Shown one piece after another: positions 31,398-33,890 of a stretch of DNA of 51,299 nucleotides. Location: positions 1-51,299 of the forward strand of contig CAJJAM010000002.1 in NCBI GenBank assembly GCA_905182235.1, written 5' to 3'. This DNA comes from SAR86 cluster bacterium SAR86B. GTDB taxonomy: Bacteria; Pseudomonadota; Gammaproteobacteria; Magnimaribacterales; Magnimaribacteraceae. Each line of letters opens with the position of its first letter. Positions within the stretch are counted from its first letter, which is position 1. Made by a program: the position numbers and the translations under genes. The notes beneath the pieces were generated by a model, which saw only the letters and a program-made list of their open reading frames with translations, searched no databases and was not told the DNA's origin.

Positions 31398-32081
31398 CTA
31401 CCATCTAATTTCTGTCAGGCCGTTTTTCTTTAAAAATTCATTACATTTCAAAAAATGACCATTGCCAAGGAAACCTTTGTATGCCGAAAGAGGCGATGGA
31501 TGTGCGGATTCTAAGACCAAATGTTTTGATCTATTAATAATAGATCCCTTCATTGATGCATTTTTCCCCCATAACATGAAAACTAATTTATCTGATTGGT
31601 TTAATTTACTTATGACCTTATCAGTGAATTTCTCCCAACCTATATTTGCATGAGAGCCGGGAAGACCTTCTTCAACTGTTAAAACACTATTTAAGAGGAG
31701 CACGCCTTGTTTGGCCCATCCTGTTAGTGAGCCATCCGAAGATTCCAGATTCCCTGTGCTTGAGAGTATTTCTTTATAGATATTCTTTAGTGAAGGGGGT
31801 ATTGCTGTTCCAGGGTTAACTGAGAAAGATAGCCCATTCGCTTGGCCAGCCTGGTGATAAGGATCTTGCCCTAGTATTACAACTTTAACTTCAGTAAAAG
31901 GGGTAATTTTCATGCATGAGAATAAGTTTTTTTCTTCGGGATAAAATATCTTTCCTGACCTTTTTACCTCTTCCAGGAATTGACTGATTATTACCATATA
32001 GTCTTTATTAAATTCAGATTTTAAAGCCTTTTTCCAGTCGGGCCCCAGAGAAGAGAATATATTTTTTTGAGAAGTTTTCAT
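31398..32081 (-). CDS. ung: Uracil-DNA glycosylase
   Basis: The 227-residue enzyme removes uracil from DNA. The water-activating motif GQDPYHQAGQANGLSFS (catalytic Asp), the Phe/Asn uracil pocket (LLLNSVLTV) and the HPSPLSAYKGFLG loop are complete. It is a single gene; upstream lie the DnaA-box cluster and a long AT-rich stretch. Confidence 0.96.
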   Translation of the reverse strand: MKTSQKNIFSSLGPDWKKALKSEFNKDYMVIISQFLEEVKRSGKIFYPEEKNLFSCMKITPFTEVKVVILGQDPYHQAGQANGLSFSVNPGTAIPPSLKNIYKEILSSTGNLESSDGSLTGWAKQGVLLLNSVLTVEEGLPGSHANIGWEKFTDKVISKLNQSDKLVFMLWGKNASMKGSIINRSKHLVLESAHPSPLSAYKGFLGNGHFLKCNEFLKKNGLTEIRW

Positions 32082-32113
32082 CTATAAGCACCCTATTCTA
32101 AAGAAAAAAAAGT

Positions 32114-32178
32114 TGTCGATAAACCAAAAAAAAATTAAGAATTTTATCCACAATTTCTGTGGATAAGTCTATGGATAA
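32114..32178. promoter_or_regulatory. Cluster of four DnaA-box-like sites
   Basis: TTATCCACA at 32144-32152 (plus strand) and TGTGGATAA at 32158-32166 (minus strand) are perfect boxes. TATGGATAA (32170-32178) and TGTCGATAA (32114-32122) each differ at one base. Four boxes in 65 bases is far above chance. They lie at the promoter side of ung and next to the AT-rich region that follows. Confidence 0.65.
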
Positions 32179-32604
32179 GTTTTACATATGTAGCAAATGC
32201 TTCTGTAACAAAGGAGTGTCAGCGAATTGTACAAATTTTGATCTAATAAAAAAAAACTCAATAAAAACAATAGCTTAGATTTTAAGCACTTTTTTTGTAA
32301 AAAAAATTATTAGTTTTTATAAGTTCATTGCTTAAGTTGGTAAAACCCTAGGTTTTATGTGCAAAAGATTGAGACTTCTAATTTAGTTAAATACATTAAA
32401 GACTTTTAATTGTTTTAATAACAAATACAAGTAGATAGCATTCTAGCTTAAATTAGATGGTCAGAAACTCTTAGAAACAGACTGGGAATTAATTTAATCA
32501 GAAATAAATTCAAATGCTTATTGGGCTAAACATTGAGCCTCTACTTCCAAGGAAATAGAAATAAAAAAGATATAATTACCAGGCGTTTATTGTTTTCCAG
32601 GCTG
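32179..32604. other. AT-rich intergenic region, possible DNA unwinding region
   Basis: No credible gene lies here. It has long A and T runs (for example 32249-32263 and 32289-32309) and very few G or C bases between about 32230 and 32450. Next to the DnaA-box cluster it could be an unwinding element. A short plus-strand frame from 32533 runs backward over the 3' end of the dehydrogenase gene and looks spurious. Confidence 0.4.
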
Positions 32605-33792
32605 TTATTTAAGAAGTCTTACATTAATAACATTTTCAATAGAAGAAAGAGTGTTTATAGCCTCCTCTTCTACTGTGTTTTCTATATCAATTATGTTGTA
32701 AGCAATATCGCCCCTGCTGACATTAGTCATATCAGCAATGTTTAGACCTAAATCACCAAGGGTAGTGGCAATTTGTCCAATCATGGCAGGTACATTCTTA
32801 TTGGTTATAGTGATGCGGTTAGGTGTTGTTCTGTTTAATTGGACGTTAGGAAAATTAACAGAATTTTTAATATTACCATTCTCAAGGAAATCAACCATTT
32901 GATTAACCGCCATAACTGCACAGTTTTCTTCAGCTTGAAATGTACTGGCCCCTATGTGAGGTAGTAAAATTACGTCTTTGTGTTGATTAGCTCTTTTAAT
33001 TAAAGTTGGTGTTGGGAAATCCGTTATGAAGTTATCTAAATTATTGGAATCAAGAATTTCTAAAACATCCTCTGTATTAACAACCTCATGCCTTGCAAAA
33101 TTGAGTAGTGAAACTCCTTCACAATGCTTCAAAAGATCTTTGTTAATAATCCCTTTCGTTGAATCTAAGGCAGGAATATGAATGGTTATGTAATCAGAAT
33201 TCTTAAATAATTCTTCCAATGATTCTGCAGGAATAACTTCACTGGGAAGTTTCCAGGCTGCTTCAACAGAAAGAGCAGGATCATATCCAATAACATGCAT
33301 TTCTAAAGCGACTCCCATTTTAGCTACTTTTGAACCAATAGACCCGAGACCCACAACACCCAATACGGAACCGGCTAATTCCTTTCCTTTAAACAACTTC
33401 TTATTCTCTTCCAGGTAAGGTTCAAGATCTTTCATTTCAGAAAGATGTTGTAAATTATTTACAAAATCTATGCTAGAAAAAATATTTCTACTAGACAGCA
33501 TCAAGCCGGCAAGGACTAATTCTTTGACAGCATTTGCATTCGCGCCAGGGGTATTAAAAACAACAACGCCTCTGTCGGTACATAAATCAACAGGTATGTT
33601 ATTCACACCTGCTCCAGCTCTAGATATAGCCATTAGAGTATTGCCAAGGTGTCCTTCATTCAACTTGGTACTTCTAACTAAAATACCGTCAGGTGTTTCA
33701 GAAGTTTCAGTCACACTGCAATTAGTTCCACCAAATTTCTCTAACCCAATGGGTGAGATATTACTGTAAGGCCTTACTTGAAAACTTGTCAT
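32605..33792 (-). CDS. serA: D-3-phosphoglycerate dehydrogenase with ACT domain
   Basis: About 395 residues from MTSFQVRPYSNISPIGL; an upstream Met at 33831 seems less likely. It catalyses the first step of serine synthesis, using NAD. The Rossmann motif GVVGLGSIGSKVA, substrate-binding Arg in LLNFARHEVVN, catalytic His in LLPHIGAST and a C-terminal ACT domain (about residues 325-395) are visible. The short form, without the intervening domain, resembles the 3-PGDH type rather than long SerA. It is divergent from argF; a TATAGT-like element lies between them. Confidence 0.88.
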   Translation of the reverse strand: MTSFQVRPYSNISPIGLEKFGGTNCSVTETSETPDGILVRSTKLNEGHLGNTLMAISRAGAGVNNIPVDLCTDRGVVVFNTPGANANAVKELVLAGLMLSSRNIFSSIDFVNNLQHLSEMKDLEPYLEENKKLFKGKELAGSVLGVVGLGSIGSKVAKMGVALEMHVIGYDPALSVEAAWKLPSEVIPAESLEELFKNSDYITIHIPALDSTKGIINKDLLKHCEGVSLLNFARHEVVNTEDVLEILDSNNLDNFITDFPTPTLIKRANQHKDVILLPHIGASTFQAEENCAVMAVNQMVDFLENGNIKNSVNFPNVQLNRTTPNRITITNKNVPAMIGQIATTLGDLGLNIADMTNVSRGDIAYNIIDIENTVEEEAINTLSSIENVINVRLLK

Positions 33793-33890
33793 TTTGAATG
33801 GTTGTCCTCTAAAAAAAGCGAAGGATATCATTAATTGCTATTATTCTCGATGAACTATATAGTCGACGGCTTTTTTTAAATGCACATAAG

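Follow-up and report, generated by a model that had tools for sequence, protein, structure and literature searches.

A predicted DARS2-type DnaA-reactivating sequence beside ung in SAR86 marine gammaproteobacteria

In E. coli, two kinds of DnaA-control site lie away from oriC. The DARS sites reactivate DnaA, and according to a review (PMC5742627) their common feature is an equal spacing of DnaA boxes with an opposed box I, the head-to-head placement of DnaA on boxes I and II being what marks a DARS; datA, which inactivates DnaA, consists of DnaA boxes and an IHF site (PMC5742627). The DARS2 core has been described as conserved in gammaproteobacterial relatives of E. coli (PMC4245941), and DARS-like sequences have been reported in V. 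cholerae (PMC6090056). We found no earlier description of a DARS in SAR86 in the open-licence literature. SAR86 are abundant uncultivated marine bacteria with streamlined genomes, only distantly related to E. coli. DARS sites occupy intergenic DNA somewhere between oriC and the terminus. The DARS2 subtype has an IHF-binding site set at a fixed distance from its core, and the activity of E. coli DARS2 requires the Fis-binding sites FBS2-3.

A box cluster with DARS geometry between ung and a serA-like gene

We analysed a 51,299-nucleotide stretch (the window) of contig C2 from a SAR86 genome of 1.06 Mb in 44 contigs, 83% complete. The first-pass annotation had described two perfect and two one-mismatch DnaA boxes inside 65 bp next to AT-rich DNA, and both observations held: the boxes lie where it placed them, and the 523-bp gap between ung and the serA-like gene (32082-32604) has 27% G+C, against 38% across the window. 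The features of this region are as follows.

31398..32081, minus strand: ung, uracil-DNA glycosylase (NCBIfam NF003589, TIGR00628)
32114-32122, minus strand: fourth DnaA box, TTATCGACA, one mismatch
32144..32152, plus strand: DnaA box I of the putative DARS core, TTATCCACA, perfect, with the offset and orientation of box I in E. coli DARS1 and DARS2
32158..32166, minus strand: DnaA box II of the putative core, perfect, head-to-head with box I
32170..32178, minus strand: DnaA box III of the putative core, TTATCCATA, one mismatch
32229..32243, no strand assigned: Fis-type site, GTACAAATTTTGATC, at +85 from box I, a full match to the published consensus GnnYAnnnnnTRnnC
32265..32277, plus strand: IHF-type site, AAACAATAGCTTA, at +121 from box I, one mismatch to WATCAANNNNTTR
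32605..33831, minus strand: serA-like phosphoglycerate dehydrogenase (best NCBIfam match TIGR01327, below cut-off)

When the window was resampled 150 times under a first-order Markov model, no equal span contained more than two such boxes, and the strict 35-bp core is expected from base composition about 1e-9 times in this genome. The gap gave no Rfam match and its RNA folding was within the ordinary range (z -1.4), which speaks against an RNA element; the single terminator-like match in the gap is the inverted box pair itself.

The three boxes were compared with the E. coli sites in NC_000913.3. Box I is opposed to boxes II and III, and the offsets and orientations, 0(+)/14(-)/26(-), are identical in the window, DARS1 and DARS2. 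Summed over the three boxes, mismatches to TTWTNCACA number one in the window, two in DARS1, three in DARS2, six in datA (a measure of fit to the DARS geometry and not to datA's own layout) and nine in oriC, which fits the geometry poorly. The resemblance to DARS2, which lies in the rppH-mutH gap, extends to the flank, where IHF-type sites are predicted on the downstream side of both cores. DARS2 has them at +93 and +109, and the window's site, at +121, is about one helical turn further out than the second of these. The two elements differ in that boxes I and II are both perfect in SAR86, that the SAR86 element adjoins ung rather than mutH, and that in SAR86 the Fis-type site comes before the IHF site, counting from the core, whereas the full-consensus Fis site of DARS2 lies beyond the IHF sites, at +145. 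DARS1, in the bioD-uvrB gap, shares the core geometry but has neither an IHF-type site (≤1 mismatch) nor a Fis consensus in the scanned stretch. The E. coli genes ygfZ and serA are no further than about 90 kb from mutH; a positional kinship of the SAR86 site with DARS2 is suggestive only. The source genome encodes homologues of IhfA, IhfB, Fis and Hda, those of IhfB and Hda scoring below the NCBIfam cut-offs. Taken by its anatomy, the element at about 32144-32277 is very probably a DARS2-type DnaA-reactivating sequence.

Conservation in the SAR86 order and across the class

Relatives had been proposed as a check on the cluster, and they share its core: three boxes with no more than two mismatches to TTATCCACANNNNNTGTGGATAANNNTRTGGATAA were present upstream of ung in 52/52 loci from four families of the order. 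Nearly all sequence changes among the 52 cores fall in box III, which is weakest in family f4, while the box I/II pair is kept throughout, with a single box I change in one locus. Column information is high across the core and drops to background level directly beside it. Each of the six complete genomes has the strict inverted pair a single time, always at ung, and no other such core turned up in these SAR86 genomes. The box at 32114 is missing from both congeners (L015 and L016); it is not shared and probably lies outside the conserved element, as no part of the putative DARS. On the ung side the core adjoins the gene in all relatives (Ung itself is 82% identical to the protein of its nearest named relative, an uncultured SAR86 cluster bacterium), and the serA-like neighbour is kept in most relatives with enough flanking sequence.

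The IHF-type site is conserved in three of the four families. An IHF-type site (≤1 mismatch, +105 to +134) was found in 42 of the 44 f1-f3 loci, mostly at +119 to +122 and on the plus strand, compared with 2-6/44 in six control windows and 19/44 at +270 to +300. That last interval, counted from box I, is where loci of genus g6 (L020-L043, L053) repeatedly carry a second IHF-like site, AAACAATAACTTA. Most relatives also have a palindromic Fis-type 15-mer, placed at +84 to +86.

The fourth family differs in both the site and the protein. It is represented by eight genomes of one genus (G037, G040, G043, G046, G049, G052, G055 and G058), and the IHF site is missing from seven of their eight loci, the other keeping an IHF-like site. 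The contrast with f1-f3 gives a Fisher's p of about 2e-6 if the loci are taken as independent, which they are not. Most f1-f3 genomes carry two to four DNABII genes, including IhfA and IhfB where these could be classified; f4 genomes carry none or one, and all six single genes were best matched by HU. Two f4 genomes were without any DNABII gene, possibly through incompleteness. Both IHF subunit genes thus appear to have been lost throughout f4, and because f4 as sampled is one genus and one clade, the joint loss of genes and site counts as one event.

To examine the breadth of the element, we searched 370 gammaproteobacterial genomes and found the core (≤3 mismatches) in 262, some of which may represent other box clusters, against none for a reversed-pattern control. 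Among 30 sampled class loci, 17 had an IHF site between +118 and +122 (0.27 expected) and ten had a Fis consensus at +86. Two class loci with the IHF site at +109 had the Fis consensus at +75, so that both flanking sites may shift together over one helical turn. Loci L305 and L308 have DARS1-like cores (TTATCCACTATTCC... and TTATCCACCATTCC...), and at +121 each shows a perfect IHF consensus that DARS1 of E. coli K-12 lacks, a hint that DARS1 may formerly have had an IHF site. Outside the gammaproteobacteria, the core pattern was observed in the phylum families f196, f200 and f204, with up to nine copies in one f196 genome.

Chromosomal position and alternative roles

The first-pass annotation had suggested a possible replication origin, citing the boxes, the AT-rich DNA and a gene polarity in which genes to the left lie mostly on the minus strand and those from argF to the dioxygenase mostly on the plus strand. 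The left side is indeed mostly minus, but the right side is mixed. An origin displaced from dnaA to the ung site would account for DnaA boxes adjoining an AT-rich gap and for a local skew change around 30-36 kb inside the window. Against it stand the complete relatives, in which cumulative GC skew was sampled in 20-kb stretches of single-contig genomes beginning at dnaA (one G040 stretch being N): the minimum did not fall at the ung site in any of G036, G040, G056 and G007. In G036 and G040 it coincided clearly with dnaA; the profiles of G056 and G007 were noisy, with the minimum close to dnaA in the former and no more than about 200 kb from it in the latter. In the six complete relatives, 310-628 kb separate the box cluster from dnaA, which amounts to 0.52-0.79 of the half genome, an arm position similar to that of DARS1 (0.66; DARS2, 0.41); the mid-arm position rests on these relatives because the source genome is incomplete. 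On skew and arm position together we reject an origin at ung, a reading we find scarcely credible. The source genome has dnaA on a different contig, where the genes run gyrB-recF-dnaN-dnaA-rpmH (names read off translations, dnaA also by Pfam). The dnaA-rpmH gap (about 156 bp; L010 9740-9880, G000:C42) contains two perfect inverted DnaA boxes and is probably a very compact oriC or a dnaA autoregulation site.

The first-pass annotation had also offered a regulatory or datA-like titration role as a fallback. That the site is a DnaA-control site away from oriC agrees with our results, but its anatomy is that of a DARS (reactivation) and not of datA (inactivation). A site that, like datA, binds ATP-DnaA and IHF and promotes ATP hydrolysis, or one that simply titrates DnaA, would likewise combine DnaA boxes with an IHF site off oriC, as datA does (PMC5742627); yet E. 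coli datA fits the three-box geometry poorly, with six mismatches against one, and published work assigns the head-to-head pair to DARS, so that we consider this role highly improbable. Slightly less so, though still very unlikely, is a promoter element through which DnaA, bound 62-97 bp upstream of the ung start, would repress or activate ung in step with replication. The constant position immediately upstream of ung throughout the order speaks for such control, and it could coexist with DARS activity. However, a promoter-like site for ung was sought in the gap and none was found, and class-wide cores have the IHF site at an equal offset while ung lies within 1.5 kb in 0/30 loci. Conversely, only four of 80 ung loci in a protein-similarity set had the core, all four from the SAR86 order; the linkage to ung is therefore particular to this order.

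Proposed mechanism and significance

For the preferred reading, a DARS2-type element, we infer DnaA binding, nucleotide exchange and an effect on initiation by analogy with the E. coli sites. Hda would make ADP-DnaA after initiation, and this form would then bind all three boxes. On boxes I and II, DnaA molecules arranged head-to-head would release ADP with the aid of IHF and probably Fis bound in the flank, and the departing apo-DnaA would take up ATP and could again fire oriC at dnaA. The SAR86 DARS would in this way work against Hda. SeqA was sought in nine genomes of the order and not found; with Hda present where tested, E. coli-type sequestration is apparently missing. Given a single DARS copy and no SeqA, the recharging half of the DnaA cycle may rest on one DARS opposed to Hda.

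The putative DARS itself is of a known kind, the newer parts being the class-wide layout of core, Fis site and IHF site and the IHF-less family. The ancestral gammaproteobacterial DARS may have consisted of the core, a palindromic Fis-type site near +86 and an IHF site near +120 (or, one helical turn nearer, at +75 and +109), with SAR86 relying on one copy against Hda and one IHF-less family running an IHF-independent version; this broader proposal could equally well prove right or wrong. Family f4 offers a natural experiment on whether a DARS needs IHF. For growth-rate estimates from metagenomes, which depend on where the coverage peak is placed, the conserved DnaA-box cluster should not be mistaken for the SAR86 origin. 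Streamlined and distant from E. coli as they are, SAR86 still carry the DARS core, and the presence of the exact core across the class, together with the fixed flanking sites in SAR86, suggests that DnaA recharging is old and rarely given up.
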